Part shown: positions 5,992-12,920 of the stretch, piece after piece | Layout of the letters: each line of letters opens with the position of its first letter | Numbering within the stretch: position 1 is the stretch's first letter | Assembly: GCA_032158125.1 (NCBI GenBank) | Contig: JASKOT010000002.1 | Span: 930,001 to 994,000, forward strand | Direction of reading: 5' to 3' | DNA: 64,000 nt | From: Papiliotrema nemorosa | Taxonomy: Eukaryota; Basidiomycota; Tremellomycetes; Tremellales; Rhynchogastremaceae | Program-made: the position numbers and the translations under genes | The notes under the pieces: model-generated | The model's database searches: none | Told to the model about the DNA's origin: nothing | The model's input: the letters and a program-made list of their open reading frames with translations, nothing else

Positions 5992-6737
5992 CTATCCTCC
6001 TCCTCCGCCGCCTTCTCCTCCACCTCCTCCGCCTTCTCCGCCAACTTCACCTTTATACCCGCTAAAGCCGCTCTCAGTCCCAGTCACTGTGCCTCCCAGA
6101 CCGCCGCCAGATTCAGCGTGACCTCCGACGCCGTCATGACCGCTGTGACCGCCAGCACCGACCTCCGCTCCTGCAATTTCGGGACCGGGAGCTGGCCCTT
6201 CCTCACCTCCGTCAGCGGTGTCGGACGACGGCGAGGGAGTAGCTACAGCACCAGGTACCACAGCCACACCACCAAGAACAGGCCCACCTAACATCGCGGT
6301 GCTTCCAGGTGCAACCGAACCAGACGAAGGCACCTTTGCAGAGGTATCAGAAGGGTCATTGCTGATCTTCTTCTTGGCCTTCTTGGATGGTGGAGGAGCG
6401 ACGGGAGAGGGGACAGGAGAAGGTGACGTGATATTGATTCGTGGACCTTGGGGTTCGACGCTGATGGTTCGGGTGGGGATGAGAGGAAGGGGATCGATAG
6501 TTTGCTTCTTCTTTCGCCTGTCGAGTCAGTACTCGCAATAGGACGCGATGAGGGCCGCTCTTACAGCTGAAATGTCAGCTATGAGCCTTGTGTAATGATA
6601 GGCTAAAAGAGAGGGCGCACTCACTCCGAAACATCCCCCTAGGAACCCTCCTCCTCGAAGGCGAAGGACTGGGTTCTGGCTGTCTGCTGGTGGTCAATCG
6701 CGGCCAAGCTTGACCGCCTGATAGTGCACTCACCCAT
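5992..6737 (-). CDS. Cluster gene A: ubiquitin-tail-like VLRLRGG, Gly-rich protein
   Basis: Four predicted exons: 6737-6734 (ATGG), 6686-6625, a 2-nt exon 6566-6565 (CT), and 6517-5992; introns of 47, 58 and 47 nt. The 197-residue product starts MADSQNPVLRLRGGGFLGG. Residues 8-14 are identical to the last seven residues of ubiquitin, but no ubiquitin fold precedes them. After the micro-exon comes RKKKQTIDPLPLIP, a Pro/Ser linker with a Lys cluster (KKAKKK), an Ala/Val/Gly stretch, and a tail of Gly with scattered Glu. The segment (R/K)xxIDPLP is shared with gene D, which marks the two as paralogs. The acceptor of intron 1 is a CAGCAG pair (MADSQ or MDSQ). An alternative AAAG acceptor in place of the micro-exon would also keep frame in this gene. 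Function unknown. Confidence 0.65.
6565..6566 (-). other. Predicted 2-nt micro-exon of gene A
   Basis: Sequence CT, between acceptor ATTTCAG and donor GTAAGAG. Upstream exon ends in phase 0 (GGA) and the downstream exon starts with one base before a codon (G|CGA), so exactly two bases are required. The new codon is CTG (Leu). Confidence 0.5.
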
Positions 6738-6858
6738 GTTCACGGATGATTATTGGAATATCAGAGGAAGAAACAAAAGGAAAGTATGCCAATCCTATGA
6801 TGGATCCAAGCACATTGCGTGCCCATCTTCACATATCCAGGCACGCCCCTTCATCATC

Positions 6859-7512
6859 TCATGCCCGATCTTCGAGTACCTCTTCCAGCTTCTCAGCCAA
6901 CCTGATGTCCTTGATGGTCACTCCTGGTCGAGGTTTACTAGCATTTTTCGGCTGCCCAAGTGGAGGAAGTGGAGTATGAGTGTGGGTTGAGACTTGCAGG
7001 ACGTAACCTGTATCTGCCGCTAAGGAGACTTCCGCCCCGTTTCCTGTCCAGTCTGAAGAAGGGGATATATGTATCGAAGGGTGATGCTACTCTGTCAGCG
7101 AGCGTCATGCAAGTCGGCAAAGACGTACATCCTGAAGGGCTGCCTCTTGCAAAACCTTCTGGGAGAAATCCATCAAGCTCGTCCATCCATCCTTTCCTGA
7201 TGTAAACTCATATACCCGGGTCAACTGCCTGTCCTGGAGATCACCATGATGAGCCGGCGCAACACCTTCCTTCGAGGCATCAAGGGCGATCAACCTCCAT
7301 CCTTGGACGTGGAGAGGGGCGAAAGATGCGAGGAAAGTGGTCGGGGTGAGTAGTCGATATGGCGAAGGTCGTTTGGGTTGAACAGGTGTTTCATTTGAAG
7401 CCAGAGTTGTCGACAATTTGCGGATCGTCACACCTCCAGAAGAGCGTGTGCGGACAGATGCTGAGATACCCCTGATGGTCGATGAGAGATGCCGAGTTGC
7501 ACTTGATGCCAT
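6859..7512 (-). CDS. PCD: Pterin-4a-carbinolamine dehydratase
   Basis: Two exons, 7512-7129 and 7086-6859, separated by a 42-nt intron (GTACGT..GTAG); 217 residues. The start is the ATG in ACACCATGGC. The N-terminal ~55 residues are Ser/Thr/Arg-rich without acids, like a mitochondrial presequence. The PCD core follows: GWRLIALD, LTRVYEFTSGKDGW, DFSQKVLQEAALQ, then the signature DHHPSI (family E/N-H-H-P), GYVLQVSTHTP and IRLAEKLEEVL. The enzyme dehydrates 4a-hydroxy-tetrahydropterins in the tetrahydrobiopterin cycle; in fungi its exact use is less clear. It is longer than bacterial PCD (about 100 residues) because of the N-terminal extension and an insert (about 25 residues) before VTIKDIRLA. 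It lies inside the A-F cluster, on the same strand as A and divergent from B, but has no sequence relation to them. Confidence 0.9.
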
Positions 7513-7820
7513 GGTGTGGTGTCTCAAAGATGATAGAGGTGGATTCAAGCCGAACAGGCTTTACGTTAGATCGCTAATTCGTCAACCTGGTTGATACATA
7601 TCACTGCAAAGCATCGACTCGCACCCTTGGGTTCATTGCCTGACCTTAGATTCGCTGTGCGGATAACTGCCTACGTATCAGAAATCGCGAGGATCACGAT
7701 GGAGCCAGACCAACGGATATTCCACCGGATGACCCCGCGAGGACAGAAAGAGGATCGATCCGATAAGAGATTGACTATCAGCTTCCTTGAACACTCTACT
7801 CGTCGTCGAGCCTCACACGC

Positions 7821-8440
7821 ATGCTACTCAGCACTCTCAAATCGAGATTTCTCCGGTGTATAGGCATCAACAACTTCGAAGATCCTTGCACAAGGCCTCG
7901 GCATCACCCGTGAGCTGACCTCGCCGGTCTTGCTCAGCGACGTGCATGTTTGCTGATTCACGAAGCACTGTCCCCGTTTCTGAAGCTACAAACTCATCTT
8001 CTGCATCGAACGATGGTCTGCATTCGCTCCCCAACAAGGCCTACAAAGCATCATCGACAGCATCAGTACCTAAACCACTCGCATTCGACTTGCCGAGCTC
8101 AGATCACGGGGCGATGTCGAGTCTGTATCCCAGTAGCGATTCGGCATCATCAGGCGATTGTGCAATAGCTGTGGACAAATCCTCGGCTGCATTTACTGCA
8201 GCATGGGAAGAGAATCAACGATGGCAAGAGAGGAGACGGATAGCAAGCTGGAAGAAATACGAGTTGAGCTCATCATACGGCGGTCAGGGGCGAGCGAATG
8301 GGACTGTGTTGGGGTCAGACCATAGACGTCGACGAGATTATGGCAAGTACGAAGGAGGTTCCAGCGGAGCGGGAGGCAGTAGTGGGGACGGTGGTGGATG
8401 CGGAGGAGGGGGTGGTGGAGGAGATGGTGGTGGAGCATGA
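7821..8440 (+). CDS. Cluster gene B: Gly-rich tail protein, paralog of C
   Basis: Two predicted exons, 7821-7909 and 7966-8440; a 56-nt intron (GTGAGC, branch TGCTGATTC, acceptor CACGAAG) splits a codon in phase 2. The product (187 residues) starts MLLSTLKSRFLRCIGINNF, followed by a Ser/Thr/Asn-rich linker. A charged helix follows (AAFTAAWEENQRWQERRR then SWKKYELSSSYGG), and then a tail of Gly with Asp, Ser and one Cys. The helix and the start of the tail match gene C (AAYAAAVEENKRREEERRRR then GWRRYG and GGSYGG), and both introns use GTGAGC in phase 2, so B and C are duplicates. There is no LRLRGG peptide; the N-terminus instead has FLRCIG. A shorter reading from the ATG at 7946 is possible if the intron is retained. 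Function unknown. Confidence 0.6.
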
Positions 8441-8821
8441 TATGCTGAAAGATCCCTCCAGCAGGGCTTCATCGTTGGTTTCGGGAGAGATCTCCGTCAA
8501 CGTTGACATGGGACGTAACAGCTGGGTATCATAGCTGATGCCGGAAAGGCTACGGGTGTAGCAGCGAAGCTGCAGAGACCAAAGCACGACATAGGATCTA
8601 TGGTAGGACGATAGCCAGAACTGGACCTCTCCCTGACCTTAATCTCATTGAAACTATCTTATAAACAATGCATACCGTCATAGGACTCGAGAGCTTGCGA
8701 AGGAACTTTCATCAAGCAGCGATGAAGGCGTAATGTCATGGACCGTTGTGCATTTCGGCTAAGCCATTGAGCCGGAACACCCGAACTTCCCACTCATTCT
8801 CATCCCTCTTGTGAAAGCGCG
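8441..8821. promoter_or_regulatory. Intergenic B-C with promoter of C
   Basis: No gene seen. A TATA-like element (TTATAAAC, about 8659-8666) lies some 155 bp upstream of the start codon of gene C. Confidence 0.35.
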
Positions 8822-9389
8822 ATGCCCACAGTCATACACCTTCCACCCCCTAAATCTAAAGCTAGGAGTTGCCTTTGTATTGACAGCCTTGATGACGCTC
8901 CTGAAAGACGTCGAGCGGACGCGTGAGCGACAACACTCTGGGCTCTACGTATCAAGCTGACGAGACAGGGCAAACCTCCCGCCTGGGCTCCCATCCGCCA
9001 TCTACCTTGGACGAGACCTTCGAGATGGACCTACTCTCGTCTACGATGACCCATCACCGCCTGCCTACAACCAAGAAGCTCAGCCAGTCAATCCTCCATC
9101 CTTGGGTAACATGATGATACACACCCCGGAACACAGCTTCGATGCCGCAACACTTCTCGCTCACTTCCAGGCTTGCAGAGCTCAAGCAGCAGCCGCGTAC
9201 GCAGCAGCAGTGGAAGAGAACAAAAGACGCGAGGAAGAGAGACGACGTAGAGGATGGAGAAGGTATGGGAAAGGTTCAGGCGATGGAGGAGGCGGTGGAT
9301 CATACGGAGGGGACGGAGGGGGATGCGGAGGTGATGGTGGGGGAGGGGGAGGGGGCGGAGGCGGAGGAGGCGATGGAGGAGGTTCATAG
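8822..9389 (+). CDS. Cluster gene C: Gly-rich tail protein, paralog of B
   Basis: Two predicted exons, 8822-8922 and 8969-9389, with a 46-nt phase-2 intron (GTGAGC..GACAG, branch AGCTGACG); 173 residues. The N-terminus is MPTVIHLPPPKSKARSCLCI followed by DSLDDAPERRR. Next come a Pro/Tyr-rich linker (LVYDDPSPPAYNQEAQP, NPPSLGNMMIH), an Ala-rich helix with one Cys (FQACRAQAAAAYAAAVEENK), a run of Arg/Glu (RREEERRRR), and finally an almost pure Gly tail with Asp, Ser, Tyr and Cys. The charged helix, tail onset, intron phase and donor are shared with gene B. The PPAY motif in the linker is a possible WW-domain ligand of the type bound by Rsp5-family ubiquitin ligases (inference). Function unknown. 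Confidence 0.65.
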
Positions 9390-9799
9390 CTTGGTAGCCT
9401 GTGGTCTGGTCGACGGGCAGAGACATGAAGGGCAATCTTAGTTGATTACGATGAATTAACGATATGCGCGTTGCGTTGGACAAGGAGCCTTGAGCTCAAC
9501 TCGGCTGAGCAGAACAGTTCTCTGGGATGCAGAGGGCGGAAGTCCAGAGTGCGGTGGATTTACGACCATGCCATTTGGCTCACCCGCCCCCTACAGTGAC
9601 ACATGCATGTCGGTGATCTCAGCTGGATGGGTTTCGGCGTAAAATCAGCCTCTGCCGTCACCTTTGATAAGGACCGACCGGTCTATTCCTGGCACTGGAA
9701 TAACCGTGTACTCTGGGCCTCATAAAGGTAAGGATGCACGGGAGAGAGGCTGTTCTCATGCTTCCCCAAGTACTGATTGTATTTATCATTCCGTGAACC
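9390..9799. promoter_or_regulatory. Intergenic C-D with promoter of D
   Basis: No gene seen. A TATA-like CATAAAGG lies at 9721-9728, about 75 bp before the start codon of gene D. Confidence 0.35.
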
Positions 9800-10385
9800 A
9801 TGCCAAACGACAAGCAGAAGAAAGAACCAGTTTTGAGGCTGCGAGGAGGTTGCACTAGCGTGCGTTGCTTCCTATTCCTCTATAATCACATAAACTGATC
9901 GCACAGAAGTGAGGATCGACCTTGATGTTCGAGCGAGAGCCACTGATGATAGGCGGCAACCCATCGATCCTCTTCCATCTCAGTCCTATCGCAACGATTC
10001 CACCACGAATGCGGGAGGCCGAACAACCCTTGCCCCACCTCAGCAGCCCAAATCATCCAGTAGAAAGCAAAACAAGCAGGGCCAGTACCTCGCTCGGAAC
10101 CTCGCTCTGAGCCAGAATCAACAGCGAATCAACCAGAATCAGATGTGGATGAACCAGAATCAGGCTGCCATGTTTGCTGCAGGAGCGTCCGGAGCCGCGG
10201 CTACGTCTACTATCCCCATGGCGGCTCCTGATTGCTCTGGAGGTGCTGGTGGGGGTGGTTGGTCTGGCTTCGGCGGAGGCGATACCAGTGGAGGAGGGGG
10301 AGGATGGTCAGGGGGAGGAGGGTTTGATGGCGGTGGAGGAGGAGGAGGAGGTGGTGGTGGGTTTTCGGGTGGAGGGGGATGCTAG
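9800..10385 (+). CDS. Cluster gene D: ubiquitin-tail-like VLRLRGG, Q/N- and Gly-rich protein
   Basis: Three predicted exons: 9800-9859, a 2-nt exon 9907-9908 (AA) and 9953-10385; introns of 47 and 44 nt (GTGCGT..CACAG and GTGAGG..GATAG). The 164-residue product starts MPNDKQKKEPVLRLRGGCTS; residues 11-17 equal the ubiquitin C-terminal heptapeptide. After the micro-exon (codon AAG) comes RQPIDPLPSQ, matching IDPLP of gene A at the same exon start. Then follow a Ser/Lys/Gln linker, Asn/Gln repeats (QNQQRINQNQMWMNQNQAAM), an Ala-rich stretch, and a Gly tail with Trp, Phe, Ser, Asp and a terminal Cys. An alternative is one intron with the weak donor GTTGCT at 9864, which also keeps frame but does not explain the match to A. 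The composition resembles aggregation- or phase-separation-prone proteins (inference). Confidence 0.6.
9907..9908 (+). other. Predicted 2-nt micro-exon of gene D
   Basis: Sequence AA between acceptor CGCACAG and donor GTGAGG. The upstream exon ends in phase 0 (AGC) and the next exon begins G|CGG, so two bases are needed; the completed codon is AAG (Lys). Confidence 0.5.
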
Positions 10386-10712
10386 ACGGTGACGGTCATA
10401 TTCGACCGTGTGTATGATTGGAACCGGTTAAAGCTATGCCAAGAAACTACCAAATTGTACATCTCGACGTGATGAATGTATGCTGGATGCTGTGACGGAC
10501 GGGCACGTCGTGCCCGCTGATCATCGAAGATGATGGAGTAGCGTCGGACAAAGGCGATAAGCAGGCATCGCCTCGGCACCGCTCCAAATAGAACAAGCAA
10601 GTGATCGACATGACGATGGGTGATGGGACAAAAGGTATATAAGATGAGCCTCTGTCTGTACATAGAGAGCAGCTCAACAACACACTTTCAGCGACACTTC
10701 ACTTCCACAAGC
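10386..10712. promoter_or_regulatory. Intergenic D-E with promoter of E
   Basis: No gene seen. It contains the TATA box of gene E (listed separately) and a short leader with CAACA repeats. Confidence 0.5.
10636..10643 (+). promoter_or_regulatory. TATA box of gene E
   Basis: TATATAAG about 70 bp upstream of the ATG at 10713, a good consensus at a typical distance for a regulated fungal promoter. Confidence 0.6.
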
Positions 10713-10969
10713 ATGTTTGGCATTTTCACAAAGCGAACCAACAAGGACAACTCGTCCAAGACCAGTATTGAAGCCGAACAATCCGCTTTACGTCTTCGTG
10801 GCGGATGTCTCGGTTGTACCGGGGTGAGTCATCATCGCATGGGCCATGGGTAGGAGCTGATGAGATACAGAGAGGACCTATAGAAGATATGACCCCGGCT
10901 GAAAAGCGAGCCAGAAAGAGGAGGAGCAGGAACAACGGCATCATCGCCGCTGTGGCAGGAGCCGCATGA
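10713..10969 (+). CDS. Cluster gene E: minimal ALRLRGGC small protein
   Basis: Two exons, 10713-10823 and 10871-10969, with a 47-nt phase-0 intron (GTGAGT, branch GCTGATGAG, acceptor ATACAG). The product has only 69 residues: MFGIFTKRTNKD, a Ser/Glu stretch, then ALRLRGGCLGCTG (ubiquitin-tail hexapeptide LRLRGG at about residues 26-31 followed by two Cys). The second exon encodes RGPIEDMTPAEKRARKRRSR and a short hydrophobic Ala/Gly/Ile end (NNGIIAAVAGAA). It lacks the Gly-rich tail of A-D and F. The phase-0 intron comes right after the Cys/Gly segment, exactly as in A and D, supporting common origin. The basic patch followed by a hydrophobic end could favour membrane or nucleic-acid contact (inference). 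Downstream of a clear TATA box. Confidence 0.65.
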
Positions 10970-11293
10970 GGTGGTACGAAAACAACCATCCACTGTGAAT
11001 CACTGTTGTTGTACAAGACGCCTGTATAGAGGTGGACGAGAATGAGAATGATGCATGCAGCCTTTCCACTTCACTGCTTGACTTTAATAGATGTGCTTCG
11101 ATCGGTCGATCCGTGACCACATCAAGTCGATCACCATCACCGCAATCCACACAGTGTCTACTGCAGCGTCATGGCCTCGTGCTCTGGGTTCTTCGCCGAG
11201 GTGCACACAGTATTCACTTGATGAAGCTACCATCCTGCTTTAGACCATATATAGAGCCGACTCTGTCATACCTCCATGTCAACTCAGCCAAAG
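10970..11293. promoter_or_regulatory. Intergenic E-F with promoter of F
   Basis: No gene seen apart from short chance frames. It holds the TATA box of gene F (listed separately). Confidence 0.45.
11248..11253 (+). promoter_or_regulatory. TATA box of gene F
   Basis: TATATA in CATATATAGAG, about 45 bp upstream of the ATG at 11294. Confidence 0.5.
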
Positions 11294-11859
11294 ATGAAGC
11301 TAGGTGATCGCATCAGGCGTCTTCTCAAGGTGAGTACCTTGCAAATAGCCCTCTAGTCGTTTGAGCTTAATTACAGCGGTGCGGACAGATGACCAAGAAC
11401 CAATAGACTGACAGCAGTAATCCCCGTATCAAGACAAGCGAAGCCATAGCCTCCACTCCATCTCCATCGACTAATTCCGCTCCACTTGTCCAGCCCAAGG
11501 CTGAGCTGCCAACTCCTTCGGCGCCCAAAGTACCACCCTCTCCATCTCGGACTAACCCGCTTGAAGCCCAGGCGAGCAAGGCCCCCGGGTGGCCATCCCC
11601 AACTTCCTCTCCTACCAAGCCCATGGTGAGTCATGTGTTGCGACATACCGGGTTAGGTGGCTTACCATATCCGTTCAAGCCTATGACTAGTGGAGGGTCT
11701 ACCGCGCCTGTGGGTGCCATCGGGATGTATACTGGCTCTTTGGTCGGGTTTGGTGGGGATGGAGGGTCCTCTGCTGGCGCTGGGGCTTCCTCTTTCAGCG
11801 GGGGTGGATTCAGTGGTGGAGGCGGTAGCAGCGGATTTGGAGGCGTCTCGGGCATCTGA
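11294..11859 (+). CDS. Cluster gene F: Pro/Gly-rich protein with 2-nt micro-exon
   Basis: Three predicted exons: 11294-11329, a 2-nt exon 11377-11378 (CG) and 11418-11859; introns of 47 nt (GTGAGT..TACAG) and 39 nt (GTGCGG, branch GACTGAC, acceptor GCAG). The product has 159 residues: a short basic N-terminus (MKLGDRIRRLLK), then NPRIKTSEAIASTPSPS, a Pro-rich middle, and a Gly/Ser/Phe tail ending FGGVSGI. It has no LRLRGG, but its exon architecture (phase-0 intron, two bases, phase-2 intron) equals that of A and D. Without the micro-exon the long third exon cannot be joined in frame at the strong acceptor; a poor alternative acceptor (ATCAAG, 11433) exists. It converges on SF3A2, with 134 bp between stop codons. 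Function unknown. Confidence 0.6.
11377..11378 (+). other. Predicted 2-nt micro-exon of gene F
   Basis: Sequence CG between acceptor ATTACAG and donor GTGCGG. Upstream exon ends in phase 0 (AAG); the next exon begins T|AAT, so the joined codon is CGT (Arg). Confidence 0.5.
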
Positions 11860-11993: not shown

Positions 11994-12920
11994 TCACTTG
12001 AATAAGAATTGACAACTGTACACCTTCTCATCCGAGTCCCAATGCTCCCATGTAGCTTCCGAATCCTCTTCTTGGTCTACTAGCTCTTTCGACGGTATCG
12101 CGAAAGCTATCGTCTCGTATGGTTCTGCTGCCAGCTACGGGGTCAGCATCGACCCATGCCAGATGTGTTGTCATTGACATACCACGAGATACTGCAATGC
12201 TCTATTTGGCACTTCTCGCTTTTGCTCAAACGCAGACATGAATCGCCTCCTTGGTCTTTCTCCAGCTTTGATTTCGGGTAAAGAAACCGTGAACAGCAAT
12301 CCCATTCTCTGGCTAACCGGATCCCTAATCTTCACAATCTTATATCCTATCAATCAGCTGACACCCAGGCTATTGCTTAAGCTAAACTCACCAGGTCGCC
12401 CAATCTTGACGAATACCTTTTTTCTAGCTACAGGAGCTGAAGGTGCAGGCAACATGGACAATGCAGCTTCCTTGTTATCTCTCGCTGCACGTCTAGCCAA
12501 ATTTGTCTGATGTTTCTTTCCCTGCGTGTGTGCGAGGTAAGACCCCTCGTTGACGTGCAAAGTGAGACAAAGACGACATTCTAGTGTACCCAAATGCGTT
12601 CGAAGGATATACGGGTCCTACTGGTTAGAATGGGTTTGGCCACGGAAGGCAGACTCACTTTGGCCAAGTCGATAGTCTCCAAGGCGAGCTTTCGCAGTCG
12701 CTCTCGCCTATCTATCGCTGTCTCCGATGCTCCGGCTGTATTGTAAGCAGATGGCTCCTGACGAAGAACAGGACTCACCGACACCTCCACTACCCTTGTT
12801 GGCTCCTGCTCGATTCTACATCGTCAGTGATGTGGTTTGATCGTCCAGTCAGATCCACCCACTTGATAGTCTACACCGTCAGCACATATTCACGAGGACG
12901 TCCATCAGTAGCTCACCCAT
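11994..12920 (-). CDS. PRP11: Splicing factor 3A subunit 2 (SF3A66/Prp11)
   Basis: Seven exons (12920-12917, 12870-12863, 12815-12779, 12735-12659, 12617-12392, 12346-12183, 12134-11994) give 218 residues. The N-terminus MDYQNRAGANKGSGGV, then DRRERLRKLALETIDLAKD, is the SF3A2 hallmark. The matrin-type zinc finger follows (C-R-L-C, then H-T-Q-G-K-K-H), and then GYKIVKIRDP, MGLLFTVSLPEI, FEQKREVPNRALQYLV, YETIAFAIPSKEL and WEHWDSDEKVYSCQFLFK. The protein belongs to the SF3a part of U2 snRNP, which docks U2 at the branch site. The human protein has a long Pro-rich tail that fungal versions lack, so the length is normal. The first two exons are only 4 and 8 nt. Divergent from RRP8 across about 200 bp. 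Confidence 0.95.

Follow-up and report, generated by a model that had tools for sequence, protein, structure and literature searches.

The target of deubiquitinases is believed to be ubiquitin in its folded form. ZUFSP and Mug105 of Schizosaccharomyces pombe were highly active on the bare ubiquitin-tail substrate RLRGG-AMC, which was not cleaved by USP21 (PMC5824887), and the loss of either acidic residue reading the arginines abolished ZUFSP activity (PMC5824887, PMC8776766). A 64,000-nucleotide (nt) stretch of the genome of the basidiomycete Papiliotrema nemorosa (hereafter the window; C2:930001-994000, genome of 19.19 Mb in 68 contigs, where C-numbers denote contigs and L-numbers label genomic loci) contains a cluster of six small genes, A to F, three of which encode the ubiquitin-tail peptide. 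Together with genes elsewhere in the genome these three belong to a real and unusual family for which no annotation was found, a scattered set of small, fast-changing genes whose proteins have little in common beyond a peptide equal or nearly equal to the end of ubiquitin. The residues kept in the predicted proteins, R-x-R-G-G, are those that ZUFSP deubiquitinases have been described as recognizing, which suggests that a ubiquitin-cutting enzyme may read them by a mechanism that is now more specific and still putative.

Gene A (5992..6737, minus strand) was modelled with exons 6737-6734, 6686-6625, 6566-6565 (a 2-nt micro-exon) and 6517-5992, and its predicted product joins MADSQNPVLRLRGGGFLGGCFG to LRKKKQTIDPLPL... 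and a Gly-rich tail. Gene D (9800..10385, plus strand; exons 9800-9859, 9907-9908 of 2 nt and 9953-10385) is predicted to encode MPNDKQKKEPVLRLRGGCTS followed by KRQPIDPLPS... and a Gly-rich tail ending in GGGGC, and gene E (10713..10969, plus strand; exons 10713-10823 and 10871-10969) a protein of 69 residues, MFGIFTKRTNKDNSSKTSIEAEQSALRLRGGCLGCTG with a basic second exon and no Gly tail. The spliced models place VLRLRGG at residues 8-14 of A and 11-17 of D and ALRLRGG at residues 25-31 of E, 14, 17 and 31 residues, respectively, separating the ATG from the second G in frame with the start codon, which bears out the claim of the earlier note that these peptides lie within the first 35 residues. 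A degenerate DNA pattern search located the LRLRGG codons at 6649..6666 (A, minus strand), 9833..9850 (D, plus strand) and 10788..10805 (E, plus strand), with a splice donor 24, 9 and 18 nt 3' of the motif, respectively. The pattern, which also lets in Phe and Ser codons, had 3 matches in the 64 kb versus a shuffle mean of 0.14, and at least 3 were found in none of 100 shuffles.

A second array, G1-G3 (L031), occupies 3 kb of the same contig (C2:785.6-788.6 kb) about 150 kb from the first and adjoins an aconitase-like gene (named by eye). Its motifs are LRLRGGC in G1, LRIRGGC in G2 and MRVRGGG in G3, and the predicted sequences are MDQQVLRLRGGCVSNKA for G1 (restricted to the first two exons because the last exon is ambiguous, with two possible choices), ...EHKPLRIRGGCWSSVEA with a Gly-rich tail for G2 and MSGSHDHKPMRVRGGGFG for G3. 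Gene H (L047, contig C3) carries MRLRGGC and is predicted to contain ...QQEEVMRLRGGCPG and to end in CIIPIPCC. Gene I (L032, C2:926 kb, 4 kb left of the window), with PLRLRGGR in ...FAWRMPLRLRGGRSGFAGIFC and a model of five exons, one of them 17 nt long, and 232 residues lacking a Gly tail, is a probable member. The family pattern is [LM]-R-[LIV]-R-G-G, the exact LRLRGG occurring in A, D, E, G1 and I and RxRGG being kept in G2, G3 and H. Both Arg and both Gly are present in all eight motif genes, although the patterns that led to G1-G3, H and I already required them. The GG is internal in every one of the eight models, 5-61 residues precede LRLRGG, and the residue after GG is Cys in five genes, Gly in two and Arg in one. 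The earlier note had proposed a tandem family of six paralogues; the expansion stood, and six paralogues proved too narrow a description of the motif family and a loose one where the motif-free B, C and F are concerned.

The motif could also be real and selected without having anything to do with ubiquitin, as an N-terminal signal of basic-hydrophobic character with Cys or Gly after it, serving for instance membrane attachment via cysteines, RNA binding or arginine methylation, with the ubiquitin match coincidental in a very large scan. Such an explanation is a serious rival, nearly as probable as the reading preferred below; since the match was spotted in a large scan, a chance resemblance to so well known a motif deserves real weight from the outset. 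LRIRGG and MRVRGG differ from ubiquitin at the hydrophobic positions, the frequent Cys and the basic segments downstream (RKKKQ, AEKRARKRRSRNN, SPKKHRR) would suit it, and so would the lack of genome-wide enrichment of LRLRGG-coding DNA. Against it stand the exact 7-mer VLRLRGG in three members (A, D and G1) and the invariance of precisely R, R, G and G, which ZUFSP enzymes read. A general signal would moreover accept Lys, yet of seven new loci with Lys-for-Arg variants of the motif, four with an in-frame ATG, none had a passable donor-acceptor pair after it, and all seven were rejected as family members.

Across the genome, LRLRGG-coding DNA did not exceed chance, with 41 pattern matches (3 of them classed from printed bases) versus 58 in the reversed control. 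Exact LRLRGG was encoded by 20 of the 41, 8 in ubiquitin genes and 12 outside them, and codon-degeneracy arithmetic gave about 12 encodings expected by chance in 19.2 Mb. Clustering, rather than genome-wide abundance, exceeds chance. The wider DNA pattern phi-R-phi-RGG-[CG] had 30 matches in the genome and 19 in the reversed control, and two triplets among the 30 (A/D/E and G1/G2/G3) each fell within 5 kb; when 30 matches were placed at random, two such triplets appeared in none of 200,000 trials and at least one in 165. The LRLRGG occurrences at L010, L015, L017, L023, L029, L033 and L034 were left out of the family, about one in-frame chance occurrence being expected by estimate, though L015 and L023 have a passable intron after the motif. 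Internal VLRLRGG in the open frames of L017 (605 residues) and L029 (597 residues) and LLRLRGG in that of L023 (124 residues) may be chance; L023 also had a weak match to TFIIA alpha/beta (E 2e-5), under the cut-off.

Over seven motif genes (I excluded), the proportions of synonymous and nonsynonymous differences in the motif codons were pS 0.71 and pN 0.14, and the six codons on either side were saturated at both site types (pN 0.62 before the motif, 15 pairs, and 0.74 after it, 21 pairs). R2, R4, G5 and G6 were kept over these genes with the use of 6, 2, 4 and 3 codons, respectively. The motif peptide looks selected as protein, a view qualified by how the genes were ascertained: the motif itself led to G2, G3 and H, LRLRGG led to G1, and the earlier note had picked A, D and E for it. 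Independent support is given by the clustering, the common gene structure and the Gly-rich tails, which within the window are confined to this cluster.

The remaining cluster genes lack LRLRGG. B (7821..8440; exons 7821-7909 and 7966-8440) and C (8822..9389; exons 8822-8922 and 8969-9389), both on the plus strand, have one phase-2 intron and a Gly-rich tail each, and F (11294..11859, plus strand; exons 11294-11329, 11377-11378 of 2 nt and 11418-11859) is predicted to encode MKLGDRIRRLLK, R and NPRIKTS... with a Gly/Ser-rich tail. Within the window, 14-27 Gly in a stretch of 30 residues occur in five stop-to-stop frames only, those with the tails of A, B, C, D and F. The tails that the earlier note had seen in A and D and in B, C and F were therefore present, E having none, and the shared intron layout held only in part, as A, D and F, unlike B and C, have a 2-nt micro-exon with a phase-0 intron before it and a phase-2 intron after it; A has one extra intron directly after its start codon. 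The N termini of the models are hydrophilic or basic by eye. A whole-protein search with C returned C itself, B (E 0.06, 42% identity over 43 residues) and one place on C15 (E 5.1), and that with A returned A only and no paralogue.

The introns were set against 12 reference introns placed by exact protein match in the ubiquitin genes of the same genome, 11 of which measure 44-53 nt and one 241 nt, with donors GTGAGT, GTGAGC or GTAAGT and, in one case, GCAAGT; their CTGAC-type branch hexamers stand 6-9 nt ahead of the 3' end. In the family, intron length ranges from 36 to 85 nt and most introns carry the same signals; the donors are weak in places (-6.2 bits in the second intron of G3 and 1.9-4.1 in several others, including 1.9 in the last introns of F and H, versus 5.3-10.1 in the ubiquitin genes). 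A phase-0 donor lies 9-24 nt after GG in six of seven genes, H having a phase-1 donor at 7 nt, and in I the donor lies at 27 nt. A passable donor-acceptor pair starting at most 30 nt after the motif was found in 5 of 6 clustered genes, G2 falling narrowly under the threshold, versus 6 of 31 other non-ubiquitin loci, with the later accepted H and I counted among the 6/31 (p = 0.005). The codon-usage score was best in frame 0 in all ten models, though C, E and G2 led by less than 0.1 per codon and the score of H was negative. That the LRLRGG frames arose by chance in unexpressed low-complexity DNA would agree with the equality of expected and observed encodings outside ubiquitin genes, with members known from predicted models, and with the failure of D and E to be recovered from a protein library that holds a protein from the window; in view of the clustering, the introns with branch sites like those of the reference and the frame signal, such an artefact is highly improbable.

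The best models of A, D and F contain 2-nt micro-exons (CT, AA and CG, respectively), which remain predictions. For D, the path MPNDKQKKEPVLRLRGGCTS, AA, G... scored 21.3 bits, whereas paths in which every internal exon has at least 9 nt reached 4.9 at best, and models of D lacking the micro-exon were dropped on these scores. The corresponding scores were 20.4 versus 13.4 bits for F and 43.2 (42.8 for the MADSQNP start) versus 34.1 for A. VLRLRGG is retained by the three top-ranked splice paths of A, with differing residues ahead of it. The fourth-ranked path, at 39.6 bits, puts this DNA in a different frame, and the presence of LRLRGG in A therefore depends on the splice model. After the 2-nt exon A continues with QTIDPLPL and D with QPIDPLPS, and the common QxIDPLP lends independent support to their homology and frame. 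Single-nucleotide exons with RNA support were described in plants (PMC8831610) and in Fusarium CYP621A (PMC12940212), which makes 2-nt exons plausible.

No ubiquitin-family Pfam match was obtained for A, B, C, D, E, G1, G2, G3 or H (E up to 1), for I (E up to 0.01) or for the last exon of F. The statement that no beta-grasp fold precedes the motif was borne out at the profile level, and an expanded family with a ubiquitin-tail peptide and no detectable ubiquitin domain is supported. No curated Pfam domain that could tie the proteins to a known glycine-rich family scored over its cut-off; A and G2 had three sub-threshold matches. The motif exon might still be a functionless relic, copied from part of a ubiquitin gene. 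One such gene, ubiquitin-S27a, is located at C2:874 kb between the arrays at 785-789 and 936-942 kb, and its tail exon likewise stops shortly after LRLRGG at a phase-0 intron. No further ubiquitin residues were seen upstream of the motif by eye, and synonymous saturation with a kept peptide argues for present selection, leaving this origin a very small probability. In the Ub-S27a gene (L005, C2:874173), the intron that follows the ubiquitin tail by ten codons is of GC-AG type (GCAAGT). In the Ub-L40 gene (L027, C30:153171 region), exact protein match places a micro-exon of 8 nt, flanked by introns of 48 and 50 nt, and L035 (C56:1-3500) is a polyubiquitin gene of six repeats ending in LRLRGGQ.

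A single Peptidase_C78 gene, of ZUFSP type, was found in the genome (L074, C1:827600-829300), Pfam-based gene counts being lower bounds. Its catalytic stretch, with the motif GWGCGYRN, matches the ZUP1 and Mug105 structures (E 8e-20 to 3e-11); counted from the alignment, Asp and Trp align with D89 and W104 of Mug105 and E109 is replaced by Asp, and an upstream PIC...HVYDC stretch resembles part of a UBZ finger by eye. The predicted protein thus has what defines a ZUFSP enzyme, a Peptidase_C78 domain, a catalytic Cys and two acidic RxR readers. The earlier note had proposed processing after GG by a deubiquitinase-type protease; this became specific to the ZUFSP type, whose gene is present, and cutting by ordinary deubiquitinases is not expected, because USP21 spared RLRGG-AMC while ZUFSP and Mug105 cut it.

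The reading preferred here, tentatively and at something short of an even chance, is that a ZUFSP-type deubiquitinase reads the R-x-R-G-G proteins and cuts them after GG. The flexible motif would sit in the tail groove of the enzyme as an R-x-R-G-G peptide, and the cut would yield a short peptide from the N terminus, now ending freely in RGG as ubiquitin does (a non-ubiquitin peptide ending in LRLRGG such as MPNDKQKKEPVLRLRGG) and a downstream chain starting with Cys, Gly or Arg, Gly-rich in A, D and G2. The released peptide would be the type of ligand bound by zf-UBP domains, and splicing through the tiny exons would decide whether the tail is attached in frame. The bolder proposal, that a eukaryote keeps a dedicated and expanding set of ubiquitin-free substrates for a peptide-reading deubiquitinase and that the 2-nt exons switch the Gly-rich chain on or off, is held to be rather unlikely. 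Five zf-UBP matches were found in the genome, of which two are separated by 0.4 kb and may belong to a single gene. They, and the one ZUFSP-type gene, would also serve an alternative in which the family proteins stay uncut, as decoys or inhibitors filling the deubiquitinase tail groove or, after other processing, a zf-UBP domain, and expansion and fast divergence would suit a titrating role. What the zf-UBP domain of HDAC6 binds is a diglycine free at the C terminus (PMC10424181); the family GG is internal, so a prior cut would be needed, and the alternative is judged improbable.

Several points weigh against cleavage by the ZUFSP-type enzyme. ISG15 ends in RLRGG and yet is not cut by ZUFSP, and the alpha-1 helix may bar substrates larger than a pentapeptide (PMC5824887). 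The 2018 structure was read as having a glycine-only tunnel before the catalytic residue (PMC5824887), whereas in 2022 Gly-75 to Ala/Val probes still reacted in a tunnel mutant (PMC8776766), and the glycine requirement is therefore softer than claimed in 2018. As ZUFSP genes are widespread among fungi (PMC5824887), owning one is weak evidence. B, C and F lack the motif, the motif agreement of G2, G3 and H is partly by construction, and the family is known here from genomic sequence and predicted models. Among 5.8 billion proteins, residues 1-50 of D found no candidate and E one, none with E up to 10, in searches where the word filter (suspected of dropping common words), tiny exons and fast change can hide orthologues, which did not return the D and E proteins themselves and in which ubiquitin fusions were likewise absent. 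The control with the CSL/LAG1 factor of the window returned 309 proteins, and the 120 listed include Tremella, Kwoniella and Cryptococcus (60% identity in Tremella mesenterica, 51-59% in Kwoniella species, 55% in Cryptococcus neoformans, and two closer matches at 84% and 77%), so the empty results are not due to missing fungi. These identities point to a relative of the Tremellales that probably falls outside all three genera.

To the right of the cluster, an exon of the SF3A2 (Prp11) splicing-factor gene at window positions 12171-12305 (minus strand) provides a synteny marker. A minus-strand open frame of 135 residues between A and B (7105-7512), with no Pfam match, means that the cluster may be interrupted. 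TATATA boxes lie 46-134 nt 5' of E, F, G2 and G3 (window 10636 and 11248; L031 3349 and 1257, minus strand), in 4 of 10 models with 150-nt stretches searched; 4.7% of random 120-nt stretches of the window contain one. Rfam gave zero matches at the gathering score.

Among the titles and abstract openings of the matches listed, no published report of a non-ubiquitin LRLRGG family in fungi was found. If the preferred reading is true, the family would offer a possible cellular substrate for ZUFSP enzymes, whose bare-peptide activity surprised their discoverers, and the ubiquitin tail would work alone as a linear motif, a categorically new kind of system; otherwise it is an orphan gene family of a single lineage. 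Regardless of mechanism, it is a compact test case for fungal 2-nt exons and for genes escaping annotation.

One close likeness is to ubiquitin and its fusion precursors (Ub-L40, Ub-S27a and polyubiquitin), where VLRLRGG is also followed by a further chain and, in Ub-S27a, by an intron shortly downstream of the tail; they have a 70-residue fold before the tail, whereas the family has 5-61 residues and no detectable beta-grasp domain. With the substrates of ZUFSP enzymes (human ZUP1, S. pombe Mug105; RLRGG-AMC) the family shares its invariant R-x-R-G-G, here in a low-complexity segment; a ubiquitin-free natural substrate was not found reported in the portions of the papers used, where ISG15 with its RLRGG stays uncut. 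USP1, a non-ubiquitin protein, is cut at an internal ubiquitin-like diglycine, but by itself (PMC8975806), and the family proteins match no protease domain. The LXGG sites of the coronavirus papain-like protease are ubiquitin-tail-like sites in a ubiquitin-free polypeptide, though of a viral polyprotein cut by a viral enzyme (PMC10849127). As in the one-nucleotide exons of Arabidopsis APC11 (PMC4674806), other plants (PMC8831610) and Fusarium CYP621A (PMC12940212), a tiny exon stands between complete introns, and in the family it is 2 nt long and modelled in three genes of one cluster.

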